Assembly (NCBI GenBank): GCA_002189035.1
Contig: NEEC01000287.1
Location: forward strand, 1-57,927
From: Utricularia gibba
Lineage: Eukaryota > Streptophyta > Magnoliopsida > Lamiales > Lentibulariaceae
Direction of reading: 5' to 3'
Length of the DNA: 57,927 nucleotides
Shown piece after piece: positions 1 through 55,981 of this stretch; position 1 is the stretch's first letter, and each line of letters begins with the position of its first letter. A program made the position numbers and the translations under genes. Under the pieces are notes generated by a model. The model had not been told where the DNA came from, ran no database searches, and was given only the letters and a program-made list of their open reading frames with translations.

Positions 1-370
1 CCCTCGAGAGCGCCTCCTCAAATAAAAAGTATGTGGTTGGAAAACCATTTGGGGTGCTCATGACATCCTAACTTCAATAATGCATCACGATTTTCGTTGA
101 ATAGGACCGATTGGGCGCAGGAGTCGAACCGAACTTGGGTCCGGATGAACTTCCCAACGAAAGCACCCACCAAAAAACGACAAGCTTTTTCCTTCAGAAA
201 CAATGTAGGCAGCTGCCGAAAACCCACGTTAATAAATGGATCACTTTTTTGCCGGGCTACAAATGACTATGGGCCCGATTTCGACAGACCTCCGGCCAGA
301 TCCTAGTGCCCCTCGAGAGCGCCTCCTCAAATATAAAGCTTGTGGATGAGAAACCATTTGGGGTGCTCAT
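1..370 (+). repeat. Partial monomer and first complete A monomer at the left edge
   Basis: The window opens inside a linker (CTCGAGAGCGCC near position 3) and runs into an A monomer with its anchor at 62. The linker form AAAAAGTATGTGGTTGG at 27-41 is the one normally found between a C tail and an A monomer, so a C monomer probably lies just outside the window. No non-satellite sequence is present. Confidence 0.9.
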
Positions 371-430
371 GACATCCTAACTTCAATAAATGCATCACGA
401 TTTTCGTTGAATAGGACCCGATTGGGCGCA

Positions 431-441
431 GGAGTCGAACC
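431..441 (-). promoter_or_regulatory. Pol III B-box-like 11-mer, one per monomer (example)
   Basis: The minus strand reads GGTTCGACTCC, a perfect match to the tRNA-type B-box consensus GGTTCGANTCC. The motif is present in nearly every A and B monomer. Many C monomers weaken or lose it (TCGAACGAAAC or TCGAAGCGAAAC on the plus strand), and the D monomers at 52582 and 55982 alter its flank. I cannot find a convincing A-box (TRGYNNARNGG) 30-80 bp upstream on the minus strand. In B monomers the plus-strand A-run before ATGCAT gives a T5-T7 run downstream on the minus strand. TFIIIC binding or transcription is inference only; the match may be chance amplified by tandem copying. Confidence 0.35.
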
Positions 442-518
442 GAACCTTGGGTCCGGATGAACTTCCCAACGAAAGCACCCACCCAAAAACGACAAGCTTT
501 TCCTTCAGAAACAATGTA

Positions 519-528
519 GGCAGCTGCC
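519..528. repeat. 10-bp perfect palindrome GGCAGCTGCC (example)
   Basis: GGCAGCTGCC is self-complementary and occurs once in most A and C monomers. B monomers shorten it to the 8-bp core GCAGCTGC (TAAGCAGCTGCC). A further B variant after about 47.2 kb shortens it to 6 bp (TAATCAGCTGCC). The CAGCTG core is kept almost everywhere, although the flanks vary. It could be a protein-binding dyad; no function is shown. Confidence 0.6.
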
Positions 529-2134
529 GAAAACCCAACGTTAATAAATGGATCATTTTTTTGCCGGGCTACAAATGACTATGGGCCCGAGCCCGACCCG
601 ACCTCCGCCCGATCCTGGTGCCCCTCGAGAGCGCCTCCTCAAATATAAATCTTGTGGATGAGAAAGCCATTTGGGGTGCTCATGACATCCTAACTTCAAA
701 AAATGCATGTTGATTTTTGTTGAATAGGACCCGATTGGGCTCAGGAGTCGAACCGAACCTTGGTCCGGATGAACTTCCCAATGAAAGCACCACCCAAAAA
801 CGACAAGCTTTCCTTCAGAAACCATGTAAGCAGCTGCCGAAAACCCAACGTTAATAAATGGATCACTTTTTTTCCCGGGCTACAAATGACTATGGGCCCG
901 AGCCCGACCTGACCTCCGGCCCGATCCTGGTGCCCTCGAGAGCGCCTCCTCAAATATAAAGCTTGTGGATGAGAAAACCATTTGGGGTGCTCATGACATC
1001 CTAACTTCAATAAATGCATCACGATTTTCGTCAAATAGTACCTGATTTGGCTCAGGAGTCGAACCGAAACTTGGGTCTGGACGAAGTTCCCAACGACAGC
1101 ACCCACCCAAAAAAGACAAGCTTTTCCTTCAGAAACCATGTAGGCAGCTGCCGAAAACCCAACGTTAATAAATGGATCACTTTTTTTGCCGGGCTACAAA
1201 TGACTATGGGCCCGATTTCGAAAGACCTCCGGCCCGATCCTAGTGCCCCTCGAGAGCGCCTCCTCAAATAAAAGCATGTGGTTGAGAAAACCATTTGGGG
1301 GCTCATGACATCCTAACTTCAATAAATGCATCACGATTTTCGTTGAATAGGACCCGATTGGGCTCAGGAGTCGAACCGAACCTTGGGTCCGGATGAACTT
1401 CCCAACGAAAGCACCCACCAAAAACGACAAGCTTTTCCTTCAGAAACAATGTAGGCAGCTGCCGAAAAACCCAACGTTAATAAATGGATCACTTTTTTTG
1501 CCGGGCTACAAATGACTATGGGCCCGAGCCGACCGACCTCCGGCCCGATCCTGGTGCCCTCGAGAGCCTCCTCAAATATAAAGCTTGTGGATGAAACCAT
1601 TTGGGGTGCTCATGACATCCTAACTTCAATAAATGCATCACGATTTTCGTCGAATAGACCGATTTGGCTCAGGAGTCGAACCGAACCTTGGTCGGATGAA
1701 GTTCCCAACGAAAGCACCCACCAAAAACGACAAGCTTTTCCTTCAGAAACCATGTAGCAGCTGCCGAAAAACCAACGTTAATAAATGGATCATTTTTTGC
1801 CGGGCTACAAATGACTATGGGCCCGAGTTCGATATGACCTCCGGCCCGATCCTAGTGCCCCTCGAGAGCGCCTCCTCAAATAAAAAGCTTGTGGTTGAGA
1901 AACCATTTGGGGTGCTCATGACATCCTAACTTCAATAAATGCATCACGATTTTCGTTGAATAGGACCCGATTGGCTCAGGAGTCGAACCGAACCTTGGGT
2001 CCGGATGAACTTCCCAACGAAAGCACCCACCCAAAAACGACAAGCTTTTCCTTCAGAAACAATGTAGGCAGCTGCCGAAAACCCAACGTTAATAAATGGA
2101 TCACTTTTTTTGCCGGGCTACAAATGACTATGGG

Positions 2135-2160
2135 CCCGAGCCCGACCCGACCTCCGGCCC
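2135..2160 (-). other. G-quadruplex-capable tract on minus strand (example)
   Basis: The plus strand has CCC runs in the linker between GGGCCC and GATCCTGG. Read on the minus strand they give four GGG tracts with loops of about 9, 2 and 3 bases. The tract is intact in linkers of the form GAGCCCGACCCGACC, which usually precede a B monomer. It loses a GGG tract where the linker is GACCTGACC (B to C) and is gone where it is GATTTCGACAAGACC or GAGTTCGATATGACC (C to A). It is structural potential only. Confidence 0.5.
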
Positions 2161-4705
2161 GATCCTGGTGCCCCTCGAGAGCGCCTCCTCAAATATAAAT
2201 CTTGTGGATGAGAAACCATTTGGGGTGCTCATGACATCCTAACTTCAAAAAATGCATACGATTTTCGTTGAATAGGACCCGATTGGGCTCAGGAGTCGAA
2301 CCGAACCTTGGGTCCGGATGAACTTCCCAATGAAAGCACCAACCAAAAACGACAAGCTTTTCCTTCAGAAACAATGTAGGCAGCTGCCGAAAACCCAACG
2401 TTAATAAATGGATCACTTTTTTTGCCGGGCTACAAATGACTATGGGCCCGAGCCCGACCGACCTCCGGCCCGATCTGGTGCCCCTCGAGAGCGCCTCCTC
2501 AAATATAAAAGCTTGTGGGATGAAAACCATTTGGGGTGCTCATGACATCCTAACTTCAATAAATGCATCACGATTTTCGTCAATAGACCGATTTGGCTCA
2601 GGAGTCGAACCGAAACTTGGGTCCGGATGAACTTCCCAACGAAAGCACCCACCCAAAAAACGACAAGCTTTTCCTTCAGAAACAATGTAGGCAGCTGCCG
2701 AAAACCCAACGTTAATAAATGGATCACTTTTTTTGCCGGGCTACAAATGACTATGGGCCCGATTTCGACGACCCGGCCGATCCTAGTGCCCCTCGAGAGC
2801 GCCTCCTCAAATAAAAAGTTGTGGTTGGAAAACCATTTGGGGTGCTCATGACATCCTAACTTCAATAAATGCATCACGATTTTCGTTGAATAGGACCCGA
2901 TTGGGCGCAGGAGTCGAACCGAACCTTGGGTCCGGATGAACTTCCCAACGAAAGCACCCACCAAAAAACGACAAGCTTTTCCTTCAGAAACAATGTAGGC
3001 AGCTGCGAAAACCCAACGTTAATAAATGGATCACTTTTTTTGCCGGGCTACAAATGACTATGGGCCCGAGCCCGACCTGACCTCCGGCCCGATCCTAGTG
3101 CCCCTCGAGAGCGCCTCCTCAAATATAAAGCTTGTGGATGAGAAAACCATTTGGGGGTGCTCATGACATCCTAACTTCAATAAATGCATCACGATTTTCG
3201 TCGAATAGGACCCGATTGGCTCAGGAGTCGAACCGAACCTTGGGTCGGATGAACTTCCCAACGAAAGCACCCACCAAAAACGACAAGCTTTTCCTTCAGA
3301 AACAATGTAGGCAGCTGCCGAAAACCCAACGTTAATAAATGGATCACTTTTTTTGCCGGGCTACAAATGACTATGGGCCCGAGTTCGGACCTCCGGCCCG
3401 ATCCTTGCCCCTCGAGAGCGCCTCCTCAAATAAAAAGCTTGTGGAGAAAACCATTTGGGGTGCTCATGACATCCTAACTTCAATAAATGCATCACGATTT
3501 TCGTTGAATAGGACCCGATTGGGCTCAGGAGTCGAACCGAACCTTGGGTCCGGATGAACTTCCCAACGAAAGCACCCCCAAAAACGACAAGCTTTTCCTT
3601 CAGAAACCATGTAAGCAGCTGCCGAAAACCCAACGTTAATAAATGGATCACTTTTTTTGCCGGGCTACAAATGACTATGGCCGAGCCCGACCCGACCTCC
3701 GGCCCGATCCTGGTGCCCCTCGAGAGCGCCTCCTCAAATAAAATCTTGTGGATGAGAAACCATTTGGGGTGCTCATGACATCCTAACTTCAAAAATGCAT
3801 CACGATTTTTGTTGAATAGGACCCGATTGGGCTCAGGAGTCGAACCGAACCTTGGTCCGGATGAACTTCCCAATGAAAGCACCAAACCAAAAACGACAAG
3901 CTTTTCCTTCAGAAACCATGTAAGCAGCTGCCGAAAACCCAACGTTAATAAATGGATCACTTTTTTCCCGGGCTACAAATGACTATGGGCCCGAGCCGAC
4001 CTGACCTCCGGCCCGATCCTGGTGCCCCTCGAGAGCGCCTCCTCAATATAAAGCTTGTGGATGAGAAAACCATTTGGGGTGCTCATGACATCCTAACTTC
4101 AATAAATGCATCACGATTTTCGTCAAATAGACCGATTTGGCTCAGGAGTCGAACCGAAACTTGGGTCGGACGAAGTTCCCAACGAAGCACCCACCCAAAA
4201 AAGACAAGCTTTTCCTTCAGAAACAATGTAGGCAGCTGCCGAAAACCCAACGTTAATAAATGGATCACTTTTTTTGCCGGGCTACAAATGACTATGGGCC
4301 CGATTTCGACTGACCTCCGCCGATCCTAGTGCCCCTCGAGAGCGCCTCCTCAAATAAAGCTTGTGGTTGAGAAAACCATTTGGGGTGCTCATGACATCCT
4401 AACTTCAATAAATGCATCACGATTTTCGTTGAATAGGACCCGATTGGGCGCAGGAGTCGAACCGAACCTTGGGTCCGGATGAACTTCCCAACGAAAGCAC
4501 CCACCAAAAACGACAAGCTTTTCCTTCAGAAACAATGTAGGCAGCTGCCGAAAACCCAACGTTAATAAATGGATCACTTTTTTTGCCGGGCTACAAATGA
4601 CTATGGGCCCGAGTTCGACCGACCTCCGGCCCGATCCTAGTGCCCCTCGAGAGCGCCTCCTCAAATATAAAGCTTGTGGATGAGAAAACCATTTGGGGTG
4701 CTCAT

Positions 4706-7700
4706 GACATCCTAACTTCAATAAATGCATCACGATTTTCGAAAGGACCCGATTGGGCTCAGGAGTCGAACCGAACCTTGGGTCCGGATGAACTTCCCAA
4801 CGAAAGCACCCACCCAAAAACGACAAGCTTTTCCTTCAGAAACAATGTAGGCAGCTGCCGAAAACCCAACGTTAATAAATGGATCACTTTTTTGCCGGGC
4901 TACAAATGACTATGGGCCCGAGCCCGGACCTCCGGCCCGATCCTGGTGCCCCTCGAGAGCGCCTCCTCAAATATAAAGCTTGTGGATGAAAACCATTTGG
5001 GGTGCTCATGACATCCTAACTTCAATAAATGCATCACGATTTTCGTTGAATAGGACCCGATTGGCTCAGGAGTCGAACCGAACCTTGGGTCCGGACGAAC
5101 TTTCCAACGAAAGCACCCACCAAAAACGACAAGCTTTTCCTTCAGAAACCATGTAGGCAGCTGCCGAAAACCCAACGTTAATAAATGGATCACTTTTTTT
5201 GCCGGGCTACAAATGACTATGGGCCCGAGCCCGACCCGACCTCCGGCCCGATCCTGGTGCCCCTCGAGAGCGCCTCCTCAAATATAAAGCTTGTGGATGA
5301 GAAACCATTTGGGGTGCTCATGACATCCTAACTTCAAAAAATGCATCACGATTTTCGTGAATAGGACCCGATTGGGCTCAGGAGTCGAACCGAACCTTGG
5401 TCCGGATGAACTTCCCAATGAAAGCACCACCCAAAACGACAAGCTTTTCCTTCAGAAACCATGTAAGCAGCTGCCGAAAACCCAACGTTAATAAATGGAT
5501 CACTTTTTTTGCCGGGCTACAAATGACTATGGGCCCGAGCCCGACCTGACCTCCGGCCCGATCCTGGTGCCCCTCGAGAGCGCTCCTCAAATATAAAGCT
5601 TGTGGATGAGAAAACCATTTGGGTGCTCATGACATCCTAACTTCAATAAATGCATCACGATTTTCGTCAAATAGACCCGATTTGGCTCAGGAGTCGAACC
5701 GAACCTTGGGTCGGACGAAGTTCCCAACGAAGCACCCACCCAAAAAAGACAAGCTTTTCCTTCAGAAACAATGTAGGCAGCTGCCGAAAACCCAACGTTA
5801 ATAAATGGATCACTTTTTTTGCCGGGCTACAAATGACTATGGGCCCGAGCCCGACGACCTCCGGCCGATCCTAGTGCCCCTCGAGAGCGCCTCCTCAAAT
5901 AAAAATTGTGGATGAGAAAACCATTTGGGGTGCTCATGACATCCTAACTTCAATAAATGCATCACGATTTTCGTTGAATAGGACCCGATTGGGCTCAGGA
6001 GTCGAACCGAACCTTGGGTCCGGATGAACTTCCCAACGAAAGCACCCACCAAAAAACGACAAGCTTTTCCTTCAGAAACATGTAGGCAGCTGCCGAAAAC
6101 CCAACGTTAATAAATGGATCACTTTTTTTCCCGGGCTACAAATGACTATGGGCCCGAGCCCGACCTGACCTCCGGCCCGATCCTGGTGCCCCTCGAGAGC
6201 GCCTCCTCAAATATAAAGCTTGTGGATGAGAAAACCATTTGGGGTGCTCATGACATCCTAACTTCAATAAATGCATCACGATTTTCGTCAAATAGACCGA
6301 TTGGCTCAGGAGTCGAACCGAACCTTGGGTCGGACGAAGTTCCCAACGAAAGCACCCACCCAAAAACGACAAGCTTTTCCTTCAGAAACCATGTAGGCAG
6401 CTGCCGAAAACCCAACGTTAATAAATGGATCACTTTTTTGCCGGGCTACAAATGACTATGGGCCCGAGTTCGAATGACCTCCGGCCCGATCCTAGTGCCC
6501 CTCGAGAGCGCCTCCTCAAATAAAAGCTTGTGGATGAGAAAACCATTTGGGGTGCTCATGACATCCTAACTTCAATAAATGCATCACGATTTTCGTTGAA
6601 TAGGACCCGATTGGGCTCAGGAGTCGAACCGAACCTTGGGTCCGGATGAACTTCCCAACGAAAGCACCCACCCAAAAACGACAAGCTTTTCCTTCAGAAA
6701 CAATGTAGGCAGCTGCCGAAAACCCAACGTTAATAAATGGATCACTTTTTTTGCCGGGCTACAAATGACTATGGGCCCGAGCCCGACCCGACCTCCGGCC
6801 CGATCCTGTGCCCCTCGAGAGCGCCTCCTCAAATAAAAGCTTGTGGATGAGAAAACCATTTGGGGTGCTCATGACATCCTAACTTCAATAAATGCATCAC
6901 GATTTTCGTTGAATAGGACCCGATTGGGCTCAGGAGTCGAACCGAACCTTGGGTCCGGATGAACTTCCCAACGAAAGCACCCACCCAAAAACGACAAGCT
7001 TTTCCTTCAGAAACATGTAGGCAGCTGCCGAAAACCCAACGTTAATAAATGGATCACTTTTTTTGCCGGGCTACAAATGACTATGGGCCCGATTTCGACT
7101 GACCTCCGGCCGATCCTAGTGCCCCTCGAGAGCGCCTCCTCAAATAAATTGTGGATGAGAAACCATTTGGGGTGCTCATGACATCCTAACTTCAATAAAT
7201 GCATCACGATTTTCGTTGAATAGGACCCGATTGGGCTCAGGAGTCGAACCGAACCTTGGGTCCGGATGAACTTCCCAACGAAAGCACCCACCCAAAAACG
7301 ACAAGCTTTTCCTTCAGAAACAATGTAGGCAGCTGCCGAAAACCCAACGTTAATAAATGGATCACTTTTTTGCCGGGCTACAAATGACTATGGGCCCGAG
7401 CCCGACCCGACCTCCAGCCCGATCCTGGTGCCCCTCGAGAGCGCCTCCTCAAATATAAATCTTGTGGATGAGAAACCATTTGGGGTGCTCATGACATCCT
7501 AACTTCAAAAATGCATCGATTTTTGTTGAATAGGACCCGATTGGGCTCAGGAGTCGAACCGAACCTTGGTCCGGATGAACTTCCCAATGAAAGCACCAAA
7601 CCAAAAACGACAAGCTTTTCCTTCAGAAACCATGTAAGCAGCTGCCGAAAACCCAACGTTAATAAATGGATCACTTTTTTTCCCGGGCTACAAATGACTA

Positions 7701-8091
7701 TGGGCCCGAGCCCGACCTGACCTCCGGCCCGATCCTGGTGCCCCTCGAGAGCGCCTCCTCAAATATAAAGCTTGTGGATGAGAAAACCATTTGGGGTGCT
7801 CATGACATCCTCTTCAATAAATGCATCACGATTTTCGTCAAATAGGACCGATTTGGCTCAGGAGTCGAACCGAAACTTGGGTCGGACGAACTTCCCAACG
7901 AAGCACCCACCAAAAAAGACAAGCTTTTCCTTCAGAAACATGTAGGCAGCTGCCGAAAACCCAACGTTAATAAATGGATCAACCTAACAGAACCGACGAT
8001 CAACCCCGATTTCCGGCCAGATCCTAGTGCCCCTCGAGAGCGCCTCCTCAAATATAAATCTTGTGGATGAGAAACCATTTGGGGTGCTCAT
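4706..8091 (+). repeat. Irregular monomer order, no stable HOR
   Basis: Anchors and types are 4706 A-like, 5010 A, 5322 B, 5631 C, 5938 A, 6252 C, 6560 A, 6873 A, 7180 A, 7493 B, 7804 C. The monomer at 4706 reads TTTTCGAAAGGACC where others read TTTTCGTTGAATAGGACC, an internal deletion. The block ends with the short 7804-8092 monomer, which holds the unusual junction described separately. Confidence 0.8.
7982..8004. other. Non-satellite junction/filler inside one monomer
   Basis: After AAATGGATCA (ending 7981) the usual T-run, GCCGGGCTAC and ATGACTATGGGC are missing. In their place are about 23 bp (starting ACCTAACAGAACC) that I cannot match to any part of the monomer. Satellite sequence resumes with CCCGATTT at 8005 but then lacks about 11 bp before CCGGCCAG. 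The anchor spacing falls to 288 bp. It is the only stretch in the window where I see foreign sequence, and it resembles an end-joining scar with filler or a local assembly error. Confidence 0.7.
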
Positions 8092-11000
8092 GACATCCTA
8101 ACTTCAATAAATGCATCACGATTTTCGTTGAATAGGACCCGATTGGGCGCAGGAGTCGAACCGAACCTTGGGTCCGGATGAACTTCCCAACGAAAGCACC
8201 CACCAAAAACGACAAGCTTTTCCTTCAGAAACAATGTAGGCAGCTGCCGAAAACCCAACGTTAATAAATGGATCACTTTTTTTGCCGGGCTACAAATGAC
8301 TATGGGCCCGAGCCCGACCCGACCTCCAGCCCGATCCTGGTGCCCCTCGAGAGCGCCTCCTCAAATATAAATCTTGTGGATGAGAAAGCCATTTGGGGTG
8401 CTCATGACATCCTAACTTCAAAAAATGCACGATTTTTGTTGAATAGGACCCGATTGGGCTCAGGAGTCGAACCGAACCTTGGTCCGGATGAACTTCCCAA
8501 TGAAAGCACCAACCAAAAACGACAAGCTTTTCCTTCAGAAACCATGTAAGCAGCTGCCGAAAACCCAACGTTAATAAATGGATCACTTTTTTTCCCGGGC
8601 TACAAATGACTATGGGCCCGAGCCCGACCTGACCTCCGGCCCGATCCTGGTGCCCCTCGAGAGCGCCTCCTCAAATATAAAGCTTGTGGATGAGAAAACC
8701 ATTTGGGGTGCTCATGACATCCTAACTTCAATAAATGCATCACATTTTCGTCAAATAGACCTGATTGGCTCAGGAGTCGAACGAAACTTGGGTCGGACGA
8801 AGTTCCAACGAAGCACCACCCAAAAAAGACAAGCTTTTCCTTCAGAAACCATGTAGGCAGCTGCCGAAAACCCAACGTTAATAAATGGATCACTTTTTTG
8901 CCGGGCTACAAATGACTATGGGCCCGAGTTCGAATGACCTCCGGCCCGATCCTAGTGCCCCTCGAGAGCGCCTCCTCAAATAAAAGCATGTGGTTGAGAA
9001 AACCATTTGGGGTGCTCATGACATCCTAACTTCAATAAATGCATCACGATTTTCGTTGAATAGGACCCGATTGGGCTCAGGAGTCGAACCGAACCTTGGG
9101 TCCGGATGAACTTCCCAACGAAAGCACCCACCAAAAACGACAAGCTTTTCCTTCAGAAACAATGTAGGCAGCTGCCGAAAACCCAACGTTAATAAATGGA
9201 TCACTTTTTTTGCCGGGCTACAAATGACTATGGGCCCGATTTCGACAAGACCTCCGGCCGATCCTAGTGCCCCTCGAGAGCGCCTCCTCAAATATAAAGC
9301 TTGTGGATGAGAAACCATTTGGGGTGCTCATGACATCCTAACTTCAATAAATGCATCACGATTTTCGTTGAATAGGACCCGATTGGGCTCAGAGTCGAAC
9401 CGAACCTTGGGTCCGGATGAACTTCCCAACGAAAGCACCCACCCAAAAACGACAAGCTTTTCCTTCAGAAACAATGTAGGCAGCTGCCGAAAACCCAACG
9501 TTAATAAATGGATCACTTTTTTGCCGGGCTACAAATGACTATGGGCCCGAGCCCGACCCGACCTCCGGCCCGATCCTGGTGCCCCTCGAGAGCGCCTCCT
9601 CAAATATAAAGCTTGTGGATGAGAAACCATTTGGGGTGCTCATGACATCCTAACTTCAAAAAAATGCATCATTTTTGTTGAATAGGACCCGATTGGGCTC
9701 AGGAGTCGAACCGAACCTTGGTCCGGATGAACTTCCCAATGAAAGCACCCAAAAAACGACAAGCTTTTCCTTCAGAAACCATGTAAGCAGCTGCCGAAAA
9801 CCCAACGTTAATAAATGGATCACTTTTTTTTTCCCGGGCTACAAATGACTATGGGCCCGAGCCCGACCTGACCTCCGGCCGATCCTGGTGCCCCTCGAGA
9901 GCGCCTCCTCAAATATAAAGCTTGTGGATGAGAAAACCATTTGGGGTGCTCATGACATCCTAACTTCAATAAATGCATCACGATTTTCGTGAATAGGACC
10001 GATTGGCTCAGGAGTCGAACCGAACCTTGGGTCGGACGAAGTTCCCAACGAAGCACCCACCCAAAAAAGACAAGCTTTTCCTTCAGAAACCATGTAGGCA
10101 GCTGCCGAAAACCCAACGTTAATAAATGGATCACTTTTTTGCCGGGCTACAAATGACTATGGGCCCGAGTTCGAATGACCTCCGGCCCGATCCTAGTGCC
10201 CCTCGAGAGCGCCTCCTCAAATAAAAGCTTGTGGTTGAGAAAACCATTTGGGGTGCTCATGACATCCTAACTTCAATAAATGCATCACGATTTTCGTTGA
10301 ATAGGACCCGATTGGGCTCAGGAGTCGAACCGAACCTTGGGTCCGGATGAACTTCCCAACGAAAGCACCACCCAAAAACGACAAGCTTTTCCTTCAGAAA
10401 CAATGTAGGCAGCTGCCGAAAACCCAACGTTAATAAATGGATCACTTTTTTTGCCGGGCTACAAATGACTATGGGCCCGACGACGACCTCCGGCCGATCC
10501 TAGTGCCCCTCGAGAGCGCCTCCTCAAATAAATCTTGTGGATGAGAAACCATTTTGCTCATGACATCCTAACTTCAATAAATGCATCACGATTTTCGTTG
10601 AATAGGACCCGATTGGGCTCAGGTCGAACCGAACCTTGGGTCCGGATGAACTTCCCAACGAAAGCACCCACCCAAAAACGACAAGCTTTTCCTTCAGAAA
10701 CATGTAGCAGCTGCCGAAAACCCAACGTTAATAAATGGATCACTTTTTTTGCCGGGCTACAAATGACTATGGGCCCGAGCCCGACCCGACCTCCGGCCCG
10801 ATCCTGGTGCCCCTCGAGAGCGCCTCCTCAAATATAAAGCTTGTGGATGAGAAAACCATTTGGGGTGCTCATGACATCCTAACTTCAAAAAATGCATGAT
10901 TTTTGTTGAATAGGACCCGATTGGGCTCAGGAGTCGAACCGAACCTTGGTCCGGATGAACTTCCCAATGAAAGCACCAACCAAAAACGACAAGCTTTTCC

Positions 11001-13967
11001 TTCAGAAACCATGTAAGCAGCTGCCGAAAACCCAACGTTAATAAATGGATCACTTTTTTTGCCGGGCTACAAATGACTATGGGCCCGAGCGACCTGACCT
11101 CCGGCCGATCCTGGTGCCCCTCGAGAGCGCCTCCTCAAATATAAAGCTTGTGGATGAGAAAACCATTTGGGGTGCTCATGACATCCTAACTTCAATAAAT
11201 GCATCACGATTTTGAATAGACCGATTGGCTCAGGAGTCGAACGAAACTTGGGTCCGGATGAAGTTCCCAACGAAAGCACCCACCCAAAAACGACAAGCTT
11301 TTCCTTCAGAAACCATGTAGGCAGCTGCCGAAAACCCAACGTTAATAAATGGATCACTTTTTTGCCGGGCTACAAATGACTATGGGCCCGAGTTCGAAGA
11401 CCTCCGGCCCGATCCTAGTGCCCCTCGAGAGCGCCTCCTCAAATAAAAGCTTGTGGTTGAGAAACCATTTGGGTGCTCATGACATCCTAACTTCAATAAA
11501 TGCATCACGATTTTCGTTGAATAGGACCCGATTGGGCTCAGGAGTCGAACCGAACCTTGGGTCCGGATGAACTTCCCAACGAAAGCACCCACCCAAAAAC
11601 GACAAGCTTTTCCTTCAGAAACAATGTAGGCAGCTGCCGAAAACCCAACGTTAATAAATGGATCACTTTTTTTGCCGGGCTACAAATGACTATGGGCCCG
11701 ATTCGACGACCTCCGGCCGATCCTAGTGCCCCTCGAGAGCGCCTCCTCAAATATAAATCTTGTGGATGAGAAACCATTTGGGGTGCTCATGACATCCTAA
11801 CTTCAATAAATGCATCACGATTTTCGTTGAATAGGACCCGATTGGGCGCAGGAGTCGAACCGAACCTTGGGTCCGGATGAACTTCCCAACGAAAGCACCC
11901 ACCCAAAAACGACAAGCTTTTCCTTCAGAAACAATGTAGGCAGCTGCCGAAAACCCAACGTTAATAAATGGATCACTTTTTTTGCCGGGCTACAAATGAC
12001 TATGGGCCCGAGCCCGACCCGACCTCCAGCCCGATCCTGGTGCCCCTCGAGAGCGCCTCCTCAAATATAAATCTTGTGGATGAGAAAGCCATTTGGGGTG
12101 CTCATGACATCCTAACTTCAAAAAAATGCATGTTGATTTTGTTGAATAGGACCCGATTGGGCTCAGGAGTCGAACCGAACCTTGTCCGGATGAACTTCCC
12201 AATGAAAGCACCAAACAAAAACGACAAGCTTTTCCTTCAGAAACCATGTAGCAGCTGCCGAAAACCCAACGTTAATAAATGGATCACTTTTTTTCCCGGG
12301 CTACAAATGACTATGGGCCCGAGCCCGACCTGACCTCCGGCCCGATCCTGGTGCCCCTCGAGAGCGCCTCCTCAAATATAAAGCTTGTGGATGAGAAAAC
12401 CATTTGGGTGCTCATGACATCCTAACTTCAATAAATGCATCACGATTTTCGTCAAATAGACCTGATTTGGCTCAGGAGTCGAACGAAACTTGGGTCGGAC
12501 GAAGTTCCAACGAAGCACCCCAAAAAAGACAAGCTTTTCCTTCAGAAACCATGTAGGCAGCTGCCGAAAACCCAACGTTAATAAATGGATCACTTTTTTG
12601 CCGGGCTACAAATGACTATGGGCCCGAGTTCGAATGACCTCCGGCCCGATCCTGCCCTCGAGAGCGCCTCCTCAAATAAAAGCATGTGGTTGAGAAAACC
12701 ATTTGGGGTGCTCATGACATCCTAACTTCAATAAATGCATCACGATTTTCGTTGAATAGGACCCGATTGGGCTCAGGAGTCGAACCGAACCTTGGGTCCG
12801 GATGAACTTCCCAACGAAAGCACCCACCAAAAAACGACAAGCTTTTCCTTCAGAAACAATGTAGGCAGCTGCCGAAAACCCAACGTTAATAAATGGATCA
12901 CTTTTTTTGCCGGGCTACAAATGACTATGGGCCCGACGACGACCTCCGGCCCGATCCTAGTGCCCCTCGAGAGCGCCTCCTCAAATATAAAGCTTGTGGA
13001 TGAGAAAACCATTTGGGGTGCTCATGACATCCTAACTTCAATAAATGCATCACGATTTTCGTTGAATAGGACCCGATTGGGCTCAGGAGTCGAACCGAAC
13101 CTTGGGTCCGGATGAACTTCCCAACGAAAGCACCCACCCAAAAACGACAAGCTTTTCCTTCAGAAACAATGTAGGCAGCTGCCGAAAACCCAACGTTAAT
13201 AAATGGATCACTTTTTTTGCCGGGCTACAAATGACTATGGGCCCGAGCCCGACCCGACCTCCGGCCCGATCCTGGTGCCCCTCGAGAGCGCCTCCTCAAA
13301 TATAAAGCTTGTGGATGAGAAACCATTTGGGGTGCTCATGACATCCTAACTTCAAAAAAATGCATTTGATTTTTGTTGAATAGGACCCGATTGGGCTCAG
13401 GAGTCGAACCGAACCTTGGTCCGGATGAACTTCCCAATGAAAGCACCAACCAAAAACGACAAGCTTTTCCTTCAGAAACCATGTAAGCAGCTGCCGAAAA
13501 CCCAACGTTAATAAATGGATCACTTTTTTTCCGGGCTACAAATGACTATGGGCCCGAGCCGACCTGACCTCCGGCCCGATCCTGGTGCCCCTCGAGAGCG
13601 CCTCCTCAAATATAAAGCTTGTGGATGAGAAAACCATTTGGGGTGCTCATGACATCCTAACTTCAATAAATGCATCACGATTTTCGTCAAATAGGACCGA
13701 TTGGCTCAGGAGTCGAACCGAACCTTGGGTCCGGACGAAGTTCCCAACGAAGCACCCACCCAAAAACGACAAGCTTTTCCTTCAGAAACAATGTAGGCAG
13801 CTGCCGAAAACCCAACGTTAATAAATGGATCACTTTTTTTGCCGGGCTACAAATGACTATGGGCCCGACCGACCCGACCTCCGGCCGATCCTAGTGCCCC
13901 TCGAGAGCGCCTCCTCAAATAAAAGTTGTGGTTGAGAAAACCATTTGGGTGCTCATGACATCCTAAC
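8092..13967 (+). repeat. 4-mer higher-order repeat, order A-A-B-C, ~1.24 kb
   Basis: Anchors and types are 8092 A, 8406 B, 8716 C (partial turn); 9020 A, 9332 A, 9644 B, 9954 C; 10261 A, 10562 A, 10873 B, 11180 C; 11491 A, 11801 A, 12106 B, 12416 C; 12716 A, 13026 A, 13340 B, 13661 C. B-to-B spacings are 1238, 1229, 1233 and 1234 bp. This is one of the most regular HOR blocks in the window, with four full turns and the same slot order each time. Confidence 0.85.
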
Positions 13968-16900
13968 TTCAATAAATGCATCACGATTTTCGTTGAATAG
14001 GACCCGATTGGCTCAGGAGTCGAACCGAACCTTGGGTCCGGATGAACTTCCCAACGAAAGCACCCACCCAAAAACGACAAGCTTTTCCTTCAGAAACATG
14101 TAGGCAGCTGCCGAAAACCCAACGTTAATAAATGGATCACTTTTTTTTGCCGGGCTACAAATGACTATGGGCCCGAGCGACCGACCTCCGGCCGATCCTG
14201 TGCCCCTCGAGAGCGCCTCCTCAAATATAAAGCTTGTGGATGAGAAAACCATTTGGGGTGCTCATGACATCCTAACTTCAATAAATGCATCACGATTTTC
14301 GTCGAATAGGACCCGATTGGGCTCAGGAGTCGAACCGAACCTTGGGTCCGGACGAAGTTCCCAACGAAAGCACCCAAAAAGACAAGCTTTTCCTTCAGAA
14401 ACCATGTAAGCAGCTGCCGAAAACCCAACGTTAAATAATGGATCACTTTTTTGCCGGGCTACAAATGACTATGGGCCCGAGTTCGATATGACCTCCGGCC
14501 CGATCCTAGTGCCCCTCGAGAGCGCCTCCTCAAATAAAAGCATGTGGTTGAGAAAACCATTTGGGGTGCTCATGACATCCTAACTTCAATAAATGCATCA
14601 CGATTTTCGTTGAATAGGACCCGATTGGGCGCAGGAGTCGAACCGAACCTTGGGTCCGGATGAACTTCCCAACGAAAGCACCCACCCAAAAACGACAAGC
14701 TTTTCCTTCAGAAACAATGTAGGCAGCTGCCGAAAACCCAACGTTAATAAATGGATCACTTTTTTTGCCGGGCTACAAATGACTATGGGCCGAGCCCGAC
14801 CCGACCTCCGGCCCGATCCTGGTGCCCCTCGAGAGCGCCTCCTCAAATATAAAGCTTGTGGATGAGAAAGCCATTTGGGGTGCTCATGACATCCTAACTT
14901 CAAAAATGCATGTTGATTTTTGTTGAATAGGACCCGATTGGGCTCAGGAGTCGAACCGAACCTTGGTCCGGATGAACTTCCCAATGAAAGCACCAACCAA
15001 AAACGACAAGCTTTTCCTTCAGAAACCATGTAAGCAGCTGCCGAAAACCCAACGTTAATAAATGGATCACTTTTTTTCCCGGGCTACAAATGACTATGGG
15101 CCCGAGCCGACCTGACCTCCGGCCCGATCCTGGTGCCCCTCGAGAGCGCCTCCTCAAATATAAAGCTTGTGGATGAGAAAACCATTTGGGGTGCTCATGA
15201 CATCCTAACTTCAATAAATGCATCACGATTTTCGTCAAATAGTACCGATTTGGCTCAGGAGTCGAACCGAAACTTGGGTCGGACGAAGTTCCCAACGACA
15301 GCACCCACCCAAAAAAGACAAGCTTTTCCTTCAGAAACATGTAGGCAGCTGCCGAAAACCCAACGTTAATAAATGGATCACTTTTTTTGCCGGCTACAAA
15401 TGACTATGGGCCCGATTTCGACAAGACCTCCGGCCGATCCTAGTGCCCCTCGAGAGCGCCTCCTCAAATAAAATTGTGGTTGAGAAACCATTTGGGGTGC
15501 TCATGACATCCTAACTTCAATAAATGCATCACGATTTTCGTTGAATAGGACCCGATTGGGCGCAGGAGTCGAACCGAACCTTGGTCCGGATGAACTTCCC
15601 AACGAAAGCACCCACCCAAAAAACGACAAGCTTTTCCTTCAGAAACAATGTAGGCAGCTGCCGAAAACCCAACGTTAATAAATGGATCACTTTTTTTGCC
15701 GGGCTACAAATGACTATGGGCCCGAGCCCGACCCGACCTCCAGCCCGATCCTGGTGCCCCTCGAGAGCGCCTCCTCAAATATAAATCTTGTGGATGAGAA
15801 AGCCATTTGGGTGCTCATGACATCCTAACTTCAAAAAATGCATGTTGATTTTTGTTGAATAGGACCCGATTGGGCTCAGGAGTCGAACCGAACCTTGTGT
15901 CCGGATGAACTTCCCAATGAAAGCACCAAACCAAAAAACGACAAGCTTTTCCTTCAGAAACCATGTAAGCAGCTGCCGAAAACCCAACGTTAATAAATGG
16001 ATCACTTTTTTTTCCCGGGCTACAAATGACTATGGGCCCGAGCCGACCTGACCTCCGGCCCGATCCTGGTGCCCCTCGAGAGACCCTCCTCAAATATAAA
16101 GCTTGTGGATGAGAAAACCATTTGGGGTGCTCATGACATCCTAACTTCAATAAATGCATCACGATTTTCGTCAAATAGTACCTGATTTGGCTCAGGAGTC
16201 GAACCGAAACTTGGGTCTGGACGAAGTTCCCAACGACAGCACCCACCAAAAAAGACAAGCTTTTCCTTCAGAAACAATGTAGGCAGCTGCCGAAAACCCA
16301 ACGTTAATAAATGGATCACTTTTTTTGCCGGGCTACAAATGACTATGGGCCCGATTTCGACAAGACCTCCGGCCAGATCCTAGTGCCCTCGAGAGCGCCT
16401 CCTCAAATAAAAGTATGTGGTTGGAAAACCATTTGGGGTGCTCATGACATCCTAACTTCAATAAATGCATCACGATTTTCGTTGAATAGGACCCGATTGG
16501 CCGCAGGAGTCGAACCGAACCTTGGGTCCGGATGAACTTCCCAACGAAAGCACCCACCCAAAAACGACAAGCTTTTCCTTCAGAAACAATGTAGGCAGCT
16601 GCCGAAAACCCAACGTTAATAAATGGATCACTTTTTTTGCCGGGCTACAAATGACTATGGGCCCGATTTCGAAAAGACCTCCGGCCGATCCTAGTGCCCT
16701 CGAGAGCGCCTCCTCAAATATAAAGCTTGTGGATGAGAAAACCATTTGGGGTGCTCATGACATCCTAACTTCAAAAAATGCATCACGATTTTTGTCGAAT
16801 AGGACCCGATTGGGCTCAGGAGTCGAACCGAACCTTGGGTCCGGACGAAGTTCCCAATGAAAGCACCCAAAAAAAAACGACAAGCTTTTCCTTCAGAAAC

Positions 16901-19900
16901 CATGTAAGCAGCTGCCGAAAACCCAACGTTAATTAATGGATCACTTTTTTGCCGGGTTACAAATGACTATGGGCCCGAGTTCGATATGACCTCCGGCCCG
17001 ATCCTAGTGCCCCTCGAGAGCGCCTCCTCAAATATAAATCTTGTGGATGAGAAACCATTTGGGGTGCTCATGACATCCTAACTTCAATAAATGCATCACG
17101 ATTTTCGTTGAATAGGACCCGATTGGGCGCAGGAGTCGAACCGAACCTTGGGTCCGGATGAACTTCCCAACGAAAGCACCCACCCAAAAACGACAAGCTT
17201 TTCCTTCAGAAACAATGTAGGCAGCTGCCGAAAACCCAACGTTAATAAATGGATCACTTTTTTGCCGGGCTACAAATGACTATGGGCCCGAGCCCGACCG
17301 ACCTCCAGCCCGATCCTGGTGCCCCTCGAGAGCGCCTCCTCAAATATAAATCTTGTGGATGAGAAAGCCATTTGGGGTGCTCATGACATCCTAACTTCAA
17401 TAAATGCATCACGATTTTCGTTGAATAGGACCCGATTGGCGCAGGAGTCGAACCGAACCTTGGGTCCGGATGAACTTCCCAACGAAAGCACCCACCCAAA
17501 AACGACAAGCTTTTCCTTCAGAAACAATGTAGGCAGCTGCCGAAAACCCAACGTTAATAAATGGATCACTTTTTTTGCCGGGCTACAAATGACTATGGGC
17601 CCGATTTCGACAAGACCTCCGGCCCGATCCTAGTGCCCCTCGAGAGCGCCTCCTCAAATATAAATCTTGTGGATGAGAAAGCCATTTGGGGTGCTCATGA
17701 CATCCTAACTTCAATAAATGCATCACGATTTTCGTTGAATAGGACCCGATTGGGCTCAGGAGTCGAACCGAACCTTGGGTCCGGATGAACTTCCCAACGA
17801 AAGCACCCACCCAAAAACGACAAGCTTTTCCTTCAGAAACAATGTAGCAGCTGCCGAAAACCCAACGTTAATAAATGGATCACTTTTTGCCGGGCTACAA
17901 ATGACTATGGGCCCGAGCCGACCCGACCTCCGGCCGATCCTGGTGCCCCTCGAGAGCGCCTCCTCAAATATAAATCTTGTGGATGAGAAAACCATTTGGG
18001 TGCTCATGACATCCTAACTTCAAAAATGCATCACGATTTTTGTTGAATAGGACCCGATTGGCTCAGGAGTCGAACCGAACCTTGGTCCGGATGAACTTCC
18101 CAATGAAAGCACCAAACCAAAAACGACAAGCTTTTCCTTCAGAAACCATGTAAGCAGCTGCCGAAAACCCAACGTTAATAAATGGATCACTTTTTTTCCC
18201 GGGCTACAAATGACTATGGGCCCGATTTCGACAAGACCTCCGGCCAGATCCTAGTGCCCCTCGAGAGCGCCTCCTCAAATAAAAAGTATGTGGTTGGAAA
18301 ACCATTTGGGGTGCTCATGACATCCTAACTTCAATAAATGCATCACGATTTTCGTTGAATAGGACCCGATTGGGCAGGAGTCGAACCGAACCTTGGGTCC
18401 GGATGAACTTCCCAACGAAAGCACCCACCCAAAAACGACAAGCTTTTCCTTCAGAAACAATGTAGGCAGCTGCCGAAAACCCAACGTTAATAAATGGATC
18501 ACTTTTTTTGCCGGGCTACAAATGACTATGGGCCCGAGTTCGAAGACCTCCGGCCGATCCTAGTGCCCCTCGAGAGCGCCTCCTCAAATAAAATCTTGTG
18601 GATGAGAAAGCCATTTGGGGTGCTCATGACATCCTAACTTCAAAAATGCATGTTGATTTTTGTTGAATAGGACCCGATTGGGCTCAGGAGTCGAACCGAA
18701 CCTTGTGTCCGGATGAACTTCCCAATGAAAGCACCAAACCAAAAACGACAAGCTTTTCCTTCAGAAACCATGTAAGCAGCTGCCGAAAACCAACGTTAAT
18801 AAATGGATCACTTTTTTTCCCGGGCTACAAATGACTATGGGCCCGAGCCGACCTGACCTCCGGCCCGATCCTGGTGCCCCTCGAGAGCCCTCCTCAAATA
18901 AAGCTTGTGGATGAGAAACCATTTGGGGTGCTCATGACATCCTAACTTCAATAAATGCATCACGATTTTCGTCAAATAGTACCTGATTTGGCTCAGGAGT
19001 CGAACCGAAACTTGGGTCGGACGAAGTTCCCAACGACAGCACCCACCAAAAAAGACAAGCTTTTCCTTCAAAAACAATGTAGGCAGCTGCCGAAAACCCA
19101 ACGTTAATAAATGGATCACTTTTTTGCCGGGCTACAAATGACTATGGGCCCGATTTCGACAAGACCTCCGGCCAGATCCTAGTGCCCCTCGAGAGCGCCT
19201 CCTCAAATAAAAGTATGTGGTTGGAAAACCATTGGGGTGCTCATGACATCCTAACTTCAATAAATGCATCACGATTTTCGTGAATAGGACCCGATTGGCG
19301 CAGGAGTCGAACCGAACCTTGGTCCGGATGAACTTCCCAACGAAAGCACCCACCAAAAACGACAAGCTTTTCCTTCAGAAACAATGTAGGCAGCTGCCGA
19401 AAACCCAACGTTAATAAATGGATCACTTTTTTTGCCGGGCTACAAATGACTATGGGCCCGAGCCCGGACCTCCGGCCCGATCCTAGTGCCCCTCGAGAGC
19501 GCCTCCTCAAATATAAAGCTTGTGGATGAGAAAGCCATTTGGGGTGCTCATGACATCCTAACTTCAATAAATGCATCACGATTTTCGTTGAATAGGACCC
19601 GATTGGGCTCAGGAGTCGAACCGAACCTTGGGTCCGGATGAACTTCCCAACGAAAGCACCACAAAAACGACAAGCTTTTCCTTCAGAAACCATGTAAGCA
19701 GCTGCCGAAAACCCAACGTTAATAAATGGATCACTTTTTTGCCGGGCTACAAATGACTATGGGCCGAGCCCGACCGACCTCCGGCCCGATCCTAGTGCCC
19801 CTCGAGAGCGCCTCCTCAAATATAAATCTTGTGGATGAGAAAGCCATTTGGGGTGCTCATGACATCCTAACTTCAAAAATGCATCACGATTTTTGTTGAA

Positions 19901-22900
19901 TAGGACCCGATTGGGCTCAGGAGTCGAACCGAACCTTGGGTCCGGATGAACTTCCCAACGAAAGCACCACCCAAAAACGACAAGCTTTTCCTTCAGAAAC
20001 AATGTAGGCAGCTGCCGAAAACCCAACGTTAATAAATGGATCACTTTTTTTGCCGGGCTACAAATGACTATGGGCCCGAGTTCGATATGACCTCCGGCCC
20101 GATCCTAGTGCCCCTCGAGAGCGCCTCTCAAATAAAAAGCATGTGGATGGAAAACCATTTGGGGTGCTCATGACATCCTAACTTCAATAAATGCATCACG
20201 ATTTTCGTTGAATAGGACCCGATTGGCTCAGGAGTCGAACCGAACCTTGGGTCGGACGAACTTCCCAACGAAAGCACCCACCAAAAACGACAAGCTTTTC
20301 CTTCAGAAACAATGTAGGCAGCTGCCGAAAACCCAACGTTAATAAATGGATCACTTTTTTTTGCCGGGCTACAAATGACTATGGCCGAGCCCGACCCGAC
20401 CTCCAGCCCGATCCTGGTGCCCCTCGAGAGCGCCTCCTCAAATATAAATCTTGTGGATGAGAAAACCATTTGGGGTGCTCATGACATCCTAACTTCAAAA
20501 AATGCAATTTTTGTTGAATAGGACCCGATTGGGCTCAGGAGTCGAACCGAACCTTGGTCCGGATGAACTTCCCAATGAAAGCACCACCAAAAACGACAAG
20601 CTTTTCCTTCAGAAACAATGTAGGCAGCTGCCGAAAACCCAACGTTAATAAATGGATCACTTTTTTTGCCGGGCTACAAATGACTAGGGCCCGATTTCGA
20701 CGACCTCCGGCCAGATCCTAGTGCCCCTCGAGAGCGCCTCCTCCTTGTGGTTGGAAAACCATTTGGGGTGCTCATGACATCCTAACTTCAATAAATGCAT
20801 CACGATTTTCGTTGAATAGGACCCGATTGGGCAGGAGTCGAACCGAACCTTGGGTCCGGATGAACTTCCCAACGAAAGCACCCACCAAAAACGACAAGCT
20901 TTTCCTTCAGAAACAATGTAGGCAGCTGCCGAAAACCCAACGTTAATAAATGGATCACTTTTTGCCGGGCTACAAATGACTATGGGCCCGATTTCGACAA
21001 GACCTCCGGCCAGATCCTAGTGCCCTCGAGAGCGCCTCCTCAAATATAAATCTTGTGGATGAGAAACCATTTGGGGTGCTCATGACATCCTAACTTCAAT
21101 AAATGCATCACGATTTTCGTTGAATAGGACCCGATTGGGCGCAGGAGTCGAACCGAACCTTGGGTCCGGATGAACTTCCAACGAAAGCACCCACCCAAAA
21201 ACGACAAGCTTTTCCTTCAGAAACAATGTAGCAGCTGCCGAAAACCCAACGTTAATAAATGGATCACTTTTTTTGCCGGGCTACAAATGACTATGGCCCG
21301 AGCCCGACCCGACCTCCAGCCCGATCCTGGTGCCCCTCGAGAGCGCCTCCTCAAATATAAATCTTGTGGATGAGAAAGCCATTTGGGGTGCTCATGACAT
21401 CCTAACTTCAAAAAATGCATGTTGATTTTCGTTGAATAGGACCCGATTGGGCTCAGGAGTCGAACCGAACCTTGGTCCGGATGAACTTCCCAATGAAAGC
21501 ACCAACAAAAAACGACAAGCTTTTCCTTCAGAAACATGTAAGCAGCTGCCGAAAACCCAACGTTAATAAATGGATCACTTTTTTTCCCGGGCTACAAATG
21601 ACTATGGGCCCGAGCCCGACCTGACCTCCGGCCGATCCTGGTGCCCCTCGAGAGCGCCTCCTCAAATATAAAGCTTGTGGATGAGAAAACCATTTGGGGT
21701 GCTCATGACATCCTAACTTCAATAAATGCATCACGATTTTCGTCAAATAGTACCTGATTTGGCTCAGGAGTCGAACGAACTTGGGTTGGACGAAGTTCCC
21801 AACGACAGCACCCACCCAAAAAAGACAAGCTTTTCCTTGAGAAACCATGTAGGCAGCTGCCGAAAACCCAACGTTAATTAATGGATCACTTTTTTGCCGG
21901 GCTACAAATGACTATGGGCCCGAGTTCGATATGACCTCCGGCCCGATCCTAGTGCCCCTCGAGAGCGCCTCCTCAAATAAAAGCATGTGGTTGAGAAACC
22001 ATTTGGGGTGCTCATGACATCCTAACTTCAATAAATGCATCACGATTTTCGTTGAATAGGACCCGATTGGGCGCAGGAGTCGAACCGAACCTTGGGTCCG
22101 GATGAACTTCCCAACGAAAGCACCCACCCAAAAACGACAAGCTTTTCCTTCAGAAACAATGTAGGCAGCTGCCGAAAACCCAACGTTAATAAATGGATCA
22201 CTTTTTTTGCCGGGCTACAAATGACTATGGCCGAGCCCGACCCGACCTCCAGCCCGATCCTGGTGCCCCTCGAGAGCGCCTCCTCAATATAAAATCTTGT
22301 GGATGAGAAAGCCATTTGGGGTGCTCATGACATCCTAACTTCAAAAAAATGCATGTTGATTTTTGTTGAATAGGACCCGATTGGGCTCAGGAGTCGAACC
22401 GAACCTTGTGTCCGGATGAACTTCCCAATGAAAGCACCAAACCAAAAACGACAAGCTTTTCCTTCAGAAACCATGTAAGCAGCTGCCGAAAACCCAACGT
22501 TAATAAATGGATCACTTTTTTTCCCGGGCTACAAATGACTATGGGCCCGAGCCCGACCTGACCTCCGGCCCGATCCTGGTGCCCCTCGAGAGCCCTCCTC
22601 AAATATAAAGCTTGTGGATGAGAAAACCATTTGGGGTGCTCATGACATCCTAACTTCAATAAATGCATCACGATTTTCGTCAAATAGTACCTGATTTGGC
22701 TCAGGAGTCGAACCGAAACTTGGGTCTGGACGAAGTTCCCAACGACAGCACCCACCCAAAAAGACAAGCTTTTCCTTCAGAAACAATGTAGGCAGCTGCC
22801 GAAAACCCAACGTTAATAAATGGATCACTTTTTTTGCCGGGCTACAAATGACTATGGGCCCGATTTCGACAAGACCTCCGGCCAGATCCTAGTGCCCCTC

Positions 22901-31700: not shown

Positions 31701-31943
31701 ACCGAACTTGGGTCGGACGAAGTTCCCAACGAAAGCACCCACCAAAAAAGACAAGCTTTTCCTTCAGAAACAATGTAGGCAGCTGCCGAAAACCCAACGT
31801 TAATAAATGGATCACTTTTTTTGCCGGGCTACAAATGACTATGGGCCCGATTTCGACAAGACCTCCGGCCAGATCCTAGTGCCCCTCGAGAGCGCCTCCT
31901 CAAATAAAAAGTATGTGGTTGGAAAACCATTTGGGGTGCTCAT
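25746..31943 (+). repeat. 4-mer higher-order repeat, A-A-B-C, five turns, two with hybrid B slots
   Basis: Anchors and types are 25746 A, 26057 A, 26371 B, 26683 C; 26991 A, 27301 A, 27614 B, 27924 C; 28233 A, 28542 A, 28850 A/B hybrid, 29155 D-like; 29460 A, 29775 A, 30086 B, 30397 C; 30700 A, 31014 A, 31322 A/B hybrid, 31635 C. Turn lengths are about 1245, 1242, 1227, 1240 and 1244 bp. In turns three and five the B slot has an A-type head but B-type downstream features, so slot identity survives partial conversion. Confidence 0.8.
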
Positions 31944-34900: not shown

Positions 34901-35651
34901 GATCACTTTTTTTGCCGGGCTACAAATGACTATGGGCCCGAGCCCGACCCGACCTCCGCCGATCCTGGTGCCCCTCGAGAGCGCCTCCTCAAATATAAAT
35001 CTTGTGGATGAGAAAGCCATTTGGGGTGCTCATGACATCCTAACTTCAAAAATGCATCACGATTTTTGTTGAATAGGACCCGATTGGGCTCAGGAGTCGA
35101 ACCGAACCTTGGTCCGGATGAACTTCCCAATGAAAGCACCAAACCAAAAACGACAAGCTTTTCCTTCAGAAACCATGTAGCAGCTGCCGAAAACCAACGT
35201 TAATAAATGGATCACTTTTTTTCCCGGGCTACAAATGACTATGGGCCCGAGCCGACCTGACCTCCGGCCCGATCCTGGTGCCCCTCGAGAGCGCCTCCTC
35301 AAATATAAAGCTTGTGGATGAGAAAACCATTTGGGGTGCTCATGACATCCTAACTTCAATAAATGCATCACGATTTTCGTCAAATAGGACCCGATTGGCT
35401 CAGGAGTCGAACCGAACCTTGGGTCCGGATGAACTTCCCAACGAAAGCACCCACCAAAAACGACAAGCTTTTCCTTCAGAAACAATGTAGGCAGCTGCCG
35501 AAAACCCAACGTTAATAAATGGATCACTTTTTTTGCCGGGCTACAATGACTATGGGCCCGAGCGACAAGACCTCCGGCCGATCCTAGTGCCCCTCGAGAG
35601 CGCCTCCTCAAATAAAAAGTTGTGGATGAGAAAACCATTTGGGGTGCTCAT
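31944..35651 (+). repeat. Irregular block between HORs
   Basis: Anchors and types are 31944 A, 32255 D (with a B-like A-run), 32562 A, 32876 B, 33181 C, 33488 A, 33798 B, 34107 C, 34417 A, 34722 A, 35034 B, 35344 C. Two ABC triplets (32562, 33488) are followed by one AABC block. The anchor at 33488 reads CATGATCCTAAC, a 3-bp loss. Confidence 0.75.
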
Positions 35652-38600: not shown

Positions 38601-38748
38601 CCCAACGTTAATAAATGGATCACTTTTTTTGCCGGGCTACAAATGACTATGGGCCCGATTTCGACAAGACCTCCGCGATCCTAGTGCCCCTCGAGAGCGC
38701 CTCCTCAAATAAAAAGTATGTGGTTGGAAAACCATTTGGGGTGCTCAT
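35652..38748 (+). repeat. 5-mer higher-order repeat, order A-A-A-B-C, ~1.55 kb
   Basis: Anchors and types are 35652 A, 35959 A, 36272 A, 36583 B, 36892 C; 37206 A, 37510 A, 37820 A, 38131 B, 38444 C. Same-slot spacings are 1554, 1551, 1548, 1548 and 1552 bp. It has the same period as the 0.4-4.7 kb block but a different composition (AAABC instead of ABCAD), so the two 5-mers arose separately or were rearranged. Confidence 0.75.
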
Positions 38749-44946: not shown

Positions 44947-45259
44947 GACATCCTAACTTCAATAAATGCATCACGATTTTCGTTGAATAGGACCCGATTG
45001 GGCGCAGGAGTCGAACCGAACCTTGGGTCCGGATGAACTTCCCAACGAAAGCACCCACCCAAAACGACAAGCTTTTCCTTCAGAAACAATGTAGGCAGCT
45101 GCCGAAAACCCAACGTTATAAATGGATCACTTTTTTTGCCGGGCTACAAATGACTATGGGCCCGAGCCCGACCCGACCTCCAGCCCGATCCTGGTGCCCC
45201 TCGAGAGCGCCTCCTCAAATATAAATCTTGTGGATGAGAAAGCCATTTGGGGTGCTCAT
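44947..45259 (+). repeat. Reference monomer, subfamily A
   Basis: Subfamily A is the commonest type. Its diagnostics, in order, are CAATAAATGCATCACG, TTTCGTTGAATAGG, GGGCGCAGGAG (GGGCTCAGGAG in a second version), GTCCGGATGAAC, AACGAAAGCACCCACC, ACAATGTAGGCAGCTG and TTTGCCGGGC. It keeps both the intact 10-bp palindrome and the intact minus-strand B-box-like motif. This copy also has GTTATAAATGG (one TAA shortened) near 45115. The next A monomer in the HOR shares that variant about 939 bp later, so the two copies are closely related. Confidence 0.9.
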
Positions 45260-55947: not shown

Positions 55948-55981
55948 CTCCTCAAATAAAACAACCATTTGGGGTGCTCAT
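55948..55981 (+). other. Deletion scar in a linker
   Basis: The linker reads CTCAAATAAAACAACCATTTGG, so about 15-20 bp of the usual AGCATGTGGTTGAGAAAACC are missing. The anchor spacing drops to 283 bp. A similar loss sits near 20743 (CCTCCTCCTTGTGG), where the AAATAAAA stretch is missing. Both are single-copy events and do not define a subfamily. Confidence 0.7.

Follow-up and report, generated by a model that had tools for sequence, protein, structure and literature searches.

Introduction

Repeat units built from two old, diverged copies of a shorter sequence are already known, as are plant satellites linked to the spacers of ribosomal DNA. In the sections of Melters et al. 2013 used here (PMC4053949), the 343-bp centromeric repeat of New World monkeys consists of two weakly related halves. 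The satellite of the bladderwort Utricularia gibba that we describe is likewise a fossil dimer, with halves that we call A and B. The monkey repeat has a 171-bp one-unit form in other primates, whereas for the bladderwort dimer the one candidate found as a one-unit relative measures 131-133 bp and belongs to the dimer's own genome, and the monkey repeat is centromeric whereas the bladderwort dimer is only putatively so. The Sorghum AB dimer higher-order repeats covered in the same sections also show A/B alternation with amplification of the pair; in bladderwort, by comparison, the two halves are only 49-59% identical and multi-dimer higher-order repeats lie on top of the pair.

Among plant satellites, the Physcomitrella IGS-related repeat (PMC6302065) and Cannabis CS-237 (PMC9183113) are reported to be linked to the 45S intergenic spacer (IGS). 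Like these, the bladderwort satellite is a tandem repeat that appears akin to rDNA spacer repeats, but its kinship is distant, it is dimeric, it forms long arrays and its relative is a presumed spacer repeat. The same plant family also holds the 161-bp centromeric repeat Gn7c161 of Genlisea nigrocaulis, in the excerpt of PMC4542322 used here, with a unit near the half-unit length. Gn7c161 was compared through its primers in four tests; in the best of these, 5 of 200 shuffles did as well as the real primers, which is not significant once the number of tests is allowed for and leaves kinship no more than possible. Among the titles and abstract openings listed by searches of open papers on Utricularia satellites, centromeres and tandem repeats, none described the dimer repeat. 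For U. gibba itself, the consulted text of PMC8333044 describes four putatively entire chromosomes and, citing Lan et al. 2017, putative centromeric regions without satellite repeats.

Results

The window is one array of a dimeric satellite

The window, the whole stretch of DNA analysed, is the entire contig C212 (57,927 bp) and consists of one satellite array (Table 1). The genome comprises 100.09 Mb in 516 contigs. Its TTTAGGG telomere repeats, a plastid-like rbcL and a mitochondrial COX1 exon with contiguous cysteines at residues 116-117, a change reported in PMC3141634 for Utricularia and some Genlisea, point to U. gibba as the source. TRF reported a period of 311 over 1-48373 and 48432-57924, and 183 of the 186 monomer spacings fell within 290-330 bp, the remaining three being 281, 289 and 548. 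Identity among 185 window monomers averaged 0.949 (substitutions only). The two halves of the monomer studied in detail lay where the initial annotation had placed them, and the consensus halves measured 159 bp (A) and 156 bp (B). The dimer unit was found in long head-to-tail arrays of a single unit, as is expected of a satellite.

Table 1. Features of the window and of one of its monomers, with positions in the window.
Feature	Position	Strand	Remarks
Satellite array, ~311-bp monomers	1..57927	.	TRF, 186 spacings
Half-unit A	336..493	+	AAGCTTGTGG start; alignment to B
Half-unit B	494..647	+	AAGCTTTTCC start; alignment to A
AATAAATGCATCAC box, half A	385..398	+	register point for 131-133 bp repeat
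AATAAATGGATCA(T) box, half B	543..556	+	
B-box-like GGTTCGACTCC	431..441	-	only half A of subfamily S1
Palindrome GGCAGCTGCC	519..528	.	only half B of subfamily S1
Disrupted monomer, 548-bp step	48282-48829		within window array

Larger repeats of changing size had been proposed on top of the dimer, and this was borne out. The best lag per block of 20 monomers was 5, 4, 12, 9, 4, 5, 4, 3, 11 and 4, a range of 3 to 12 monomers. Monomer order was permuted in nine overlapping blocks, each of 26-33 monomers. In six of them at most 1 of 500 permutations did as well as the best lag, and in the other three 6, 15 and 72 of 500 did. A and B alternated strictly in 12 of 15 satellite loci examined; exceptions to the ABAB order were a BB step in L006 and another in L071, scrambled order in L014 and L015, the locus L065 and a single bb in C213. 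None of the window's 186 spacings was a single-half step of 157 or 470 bp. Amplification as an A-B pair is supported by this nearly unbroken alternation and by the absence of such steps from the window, and the dimer is the unit of amplification apart from the exceptions named.

Halves A and B are homologous

Ungapped alignment of 336-406 to 494-564 gave 47/71 identities, close to the roughly 48/71 first reported. For the second block, 432-476 against 589-633, a gapless 26/45 had been claimed; the ungapped alignment gave 17/45, and a value near the claimed one requires indels (27 identities in 48 columns with gaps, pairing 45 with 46 bases). The consensus of 183 monomers had its best ungapped self-match at offset 157 with 80/139 identities and a score of 164, and 500 dinucleotide shuffles averaged 47 with a maximum of 75. 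Global alignment of A to B scored 175, with 95 identical positions over 164 columns, or 63% of those that pair two bases, and 2000 dinucleotide shuffles had a mean of -17, an sd of 24 and a maximum of 88. By score, the halves are thus clearly more alike than dinucleotide-shuffled sequence; a score within the shuffles, which would have spoken against the original proposal of a fossil dimer, was not observed. The identity count was a weak discriminator because free gaps inflate the shuffled counts (95 observed, shuffled mean 82 and maximum 94 in 500 shuffles). Splitting the monomer into 3, 4, 5 or 6 parts gave only negative best scores, so that finer internal repeats were rejected and only the 2-fold division works. 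Halves A and B are homologous, and very probably go back to a single shorter sequence that was duplicated head to tail long ago.

The A-B duplication predates the subfamilies

Thirty-nine small contigs, chosen by number, were sampled at their heads for related arrays (C5, C6, C7, C8, C50, C100, C101, C102, C104 and 30 more). The dimer satellite starts 19 of the 39, a 338-345 bp repeat starts 5 and the 131-133 and 52 bp repeats start 3. Subfamily labels S1 (the window), S2, S2b, S3 and S4 were assigned by eye from identities. Identity to S1 was about 66-86% for A and about 76-85% for B in the sampled loci; the means by subfamily were 0.848 and 0.871 (A and B) for S2, 0.843 and 0.856 for S2b, 0.661 and 0.786 for S3 and 0.713 and 0.773 for S4. 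The half-unit set comprised 23 loci, namely all 21 with more than 80% coverage together with L019 and the opening 12 kb of the window; the S1 loci L001, L002, L004-L016 and L020 were left out, and half-unit matches that covered fewer than 120 positions or were truncated at the edge of a locus were dropped. TRF gave a period of 305-315 in 20 of the 21 arrays with more than 80% coverage, the exception being L065 (C235). At L065, S1 meets S3 in opposite orientation within 1.3 kb, which is either a real junction or a misassembly.

A tree of the 23 A and 23 B consensuses separated A from B with a support of 100. Within A, an S1/S2/S2b clade had a support of 92 and an S3/S4 clade 99; within B, the S3/S4 clade had 100 and S1/S2/S2b was not recovered. 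Within each of the 23 loci A and B had an identity of 0.49-0.59, lower than that of either half to its counterpart in other subfamilies (0.64-0.87). Judged from the tree and these identities the A-B duplication is older than the subfamilies, and it also predates them because both halves are present in all 21 sampled arrays with more than 80% coverage. A column test asked whether lost A-B similarity is visible where one half differs between S1/S2/S2b and S3/S4. Where A differs between the groups and B is constant, B equalled one of the A letters in 33/41 columns (shuffled mean 21.7, sd 3.1; 2 of 5000 shuffles as high). The reverse test, with B differing and A constant, gave 18/22 (shuffled mean 10.8, sd 2.3; 8 of 5000 as high). 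This excess is what divergence from one common unit predicts.

A 131-133 bp repeat is a probable one-unit relative of both halves

Contigs C495, C310 and C390, all of which carry 131-133 bp and 52-bp repeats, were picked up when A and B served as BLAST queries (E up to 1e-3). In C495 the two repeats form blocks of ~1,020 bp, each with three copies of the 131-133 bp unit and about eight of the 52-bp unit (L080, L081 and L082). The 131-133 bp repeat matched both halves, best over a core of ~70 bp. Controls were tandem shuffles, in which the repeat unit was shuffled and then doubled. The doubled unit scored 191 to 271 against A-B-A in 6 subfamily loci, and in all six none of 500 tandem shuffles reached the score (maxima 144 to 190). 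Profiles built from A only, B only and both jointly gave 7.5, 13.4 and 14.7 bits, unreached in 1000 tandem shuffles (maxima 2.6, 3.0 and 2.5 bits); the corresponding E-values, which apply to the target set used, were 0.22, 0.0043 and 0.0013. Tested singly, 10 of 14 halves beat all 500 tandem shuffles; the others were reached by 6 (L040 A), 6 (L065 A), 1 (L062 A) and 1 (L056 B) of the 500. The same repeat base stood opposite the AATAAATG box in 23/23 A rows and 23/23 B rows, although these 46 rows are related and therefore amount to far fewer than 46 independent cases. Together with the shuffles, the A/B split of the tree and the column test, this single register to both halves upholds the fossil dimer that had been proposed.

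Common ancestry of the satellite half-unit and the 131-133 bp tandem repeat is thus well supported by sequence comparison. From its block structure the 131-133 bp repeat is probably a 45S rDNA spacer repeat; a search of the readable C495 sequence beside it with Rfam at gathering score found no rRNA match. Any direction of descent between such a spacer repeat and the satellite half-unit is conjectural. Among the TRF results listed for the 39 heads (at most three each) there was no plain array of 150-160 bp monomers, apart from 3 x 52 bp.

The existence of a third relative is also what one might expect had two distinct though related repeats, such as a pair of spacer repeats or of satellites, fused to form the dimer, rather than one monomer being duplicated in place. 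Halves that are 49-59% identical in every subfamily, with no intermediate found in which A equals B, fit such a fusion as well. The 139 ungapped homologous columns that run across the joint are nevertheless explained most simply by tandem duplication and period doubling, and we regard fusion as unlikely, though it is the most serious of the alternatives.

Motifs, half length and selection

The initial annotation gave each half an AAGCTT start and a box ending in ATCAC. AAGCTT opens both halves of the monomer in Table 1 and AATAAATG-ATCA is present in both, but across the 46 half-unit consensuses AAGCTT starts only 13 and the strict box occurs in only 12; a loose box, AANAANTNNATCA, was present in 40. 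The halves had also been described as specialised, one carrying a B-box-like motif and the other a palindrome. The word GGTTCGACTCC resembles the B-box consensus. It was found in half A of 3/3 S1 loci and 0/20 other loci, and the palindrome in half B of 3/3 S1 loci and 0/20 others. Both are thus confined to subfamily S1, the proposed specialisation of the halves is not supported, and no sign of different roles for A and B was found. An A box (at most 1 mismatch) was absent from the consensus and a tRNA gene search of window positions 1-10000 found none. With these two results and the restriction of the B-box-like word to S1, a tRNA or Pol III origin was rejected. There was no match to the CENP-B-box.

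All 46 consensus halves measured 148-160 bp, which fits the nucleosome-sized ancestor proposed earlier; the absence of a 10-bp AA/TT/TA periodicity signal and the 131-133 bp length of the one-unit relative do not. The ancestor may have been nucleosome-sized, and from length alone one nucleosome per half is possible. Selection for a half-unit holding one nucleosome's worth of DNA, with distinct protein-binding roles for A and B, would account for this uniform length and for the 27 of 156 columns that are invariant across the 46 half-units. However, inside the window neither the columns with A equal to B (means 0.050 and 0.059, p = 0.24) nor the 27 invariant columns (0.037 and 0.058, p = 0.20) were significantly less variable. 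With no signal from either the A/B-shared columns or the nucleosome periodicity, both were rejected. As both motifs, B-box-like word and palindrome, occur in S1 only and the CENP-B-box has no counterpart, selection of this kind seems to us improbable, somewhat more so than a fusion.

Other tandem repeats and assembly quality

A second satellite, of 336-345 bp, was observed at 5 of the 39 heads, and C451 (336 bp) and C244 (344 bp) end in it as well; its loci are L038, L058, L060, L067, L074, L047 and L050. It has at least three variants, which when aligned to one another score about half of what is attainable. C505 and C100 begin with yet another tandem repeat, 534-536 bp in length (L032 and L036). 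L038, on the reverse strand, scored 208 against S1, above all 60 plain shuffles (maximum 201); under tandem shuffles this score was reached by 9 of 200. Kinship of the dimer to both of these longer repeats was rejected for want of a convincing match, since at least 9 of 200 tandem shuffles reach each score on either strand.

Scrambled monomers in L014 and L015 (C103:16500-33500) and in the disrupted monomer of the window look like assembly consensus errors. Were the arrays and subfamilies largely assembly artefacts, these scrambled parts (judged by eye) and the round-number size of several contigs would be accounted for. Such a reading is highly improbable: of the 39 small contigs sampled 19 begin with the dimer unit, an arm contig ends in it, and the subfamilies are coherent. 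Least credible of all is that the similarity of the halves reflects chance or shared base composition, which the identity count barely above its shuffles might suggest but which the score controls already refute, with offset 157-158 standing out, the same A-B level in all 23 loci, the column test and the common register to a third repeat pointing the same way.

Abundance and chromosomal location

A core probe from S1, used with up to 3 mismatches and thereby taking in S2 and S2b, had 8,378 matches, and a 30-mer probe from S3, used exactly, had 5,596. The total of 13,974 units amounts to about 4.4 Mb at 312 bp and is probably an undercount because the S3 probe was exact. TTTAGGG telomere repeats are present in the genome and were found at the start of C1-C4, C213, C244 and C451, and, among the tails examined, only in those of C3 and C4. 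C213 (3.70 Mb) has a telomere at its start and at least 21,354 bases of S2 at its end. This terminal stretch (C213:3683300-3704653; L045, L083 and L084) contains 140 half-unit matches with no gap above 60 bases, and it marks where assembly of the arm breaks.

For three family probes used exactly, the first matches in contig order were in C103, C37 and C7, and C1-C4 are therefore without exact copies; diverged copies are possible there. The satellite may accordingly be missing from some chromosomes, as far as probe matches can indicate. The lack of exact copies on C1-C4 may explain why the centromeric regions have been described as satellite-free. In our reading, chromosomes without the dimer satellite were assembled through and the rest broke.

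Discussion

Together these data suggest that the two-part unit of this satellite came from a duplicated tandem unit, was homogenised as a pair and split into subfamilies, an explanation to which we give a probability of roughly 0.85. One tandem unit would have been duplicated head to tail and the two copies would then have diverged to about 49-59% identity. The A-B pair would have become the unit that was copied and homogenised, presumably by unequal exchange and gene conversion, and would later have split into S1, S2, S2b, S3 and S4, each with long arrays. The position of the array at the end of C213 suggests that the satellite is a non-coding structural array lying towards the inside of some chromosomes, probably at or around the centromere.

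More tentatively, U. gibba might have two classes of chromosome, one with satellite-bearing and one with satellite-free centromeres. The satellite-free chromosomes would be those assembled end to end, giving rise to the published view, and in the others assembly would be interrupted by megabases of dimeric satellite with a half-unit that came from an rDNA spacer repeat. We put this forward as a possibility that we favour less than its negation.

The family offers a clean plant case of period doubling, in which dimer subfamilies at several distances and a probable one-unit relative are found in one genome. By probe counts it occupies ~4.4 Mb of a genome whose putative centromeric regions are described as satellite-free in the consulted text of PMC8333044. 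Whether the centromeres of miniature genomes are judged free of satellites may thus depend on which of their chromosomes could be assembled.
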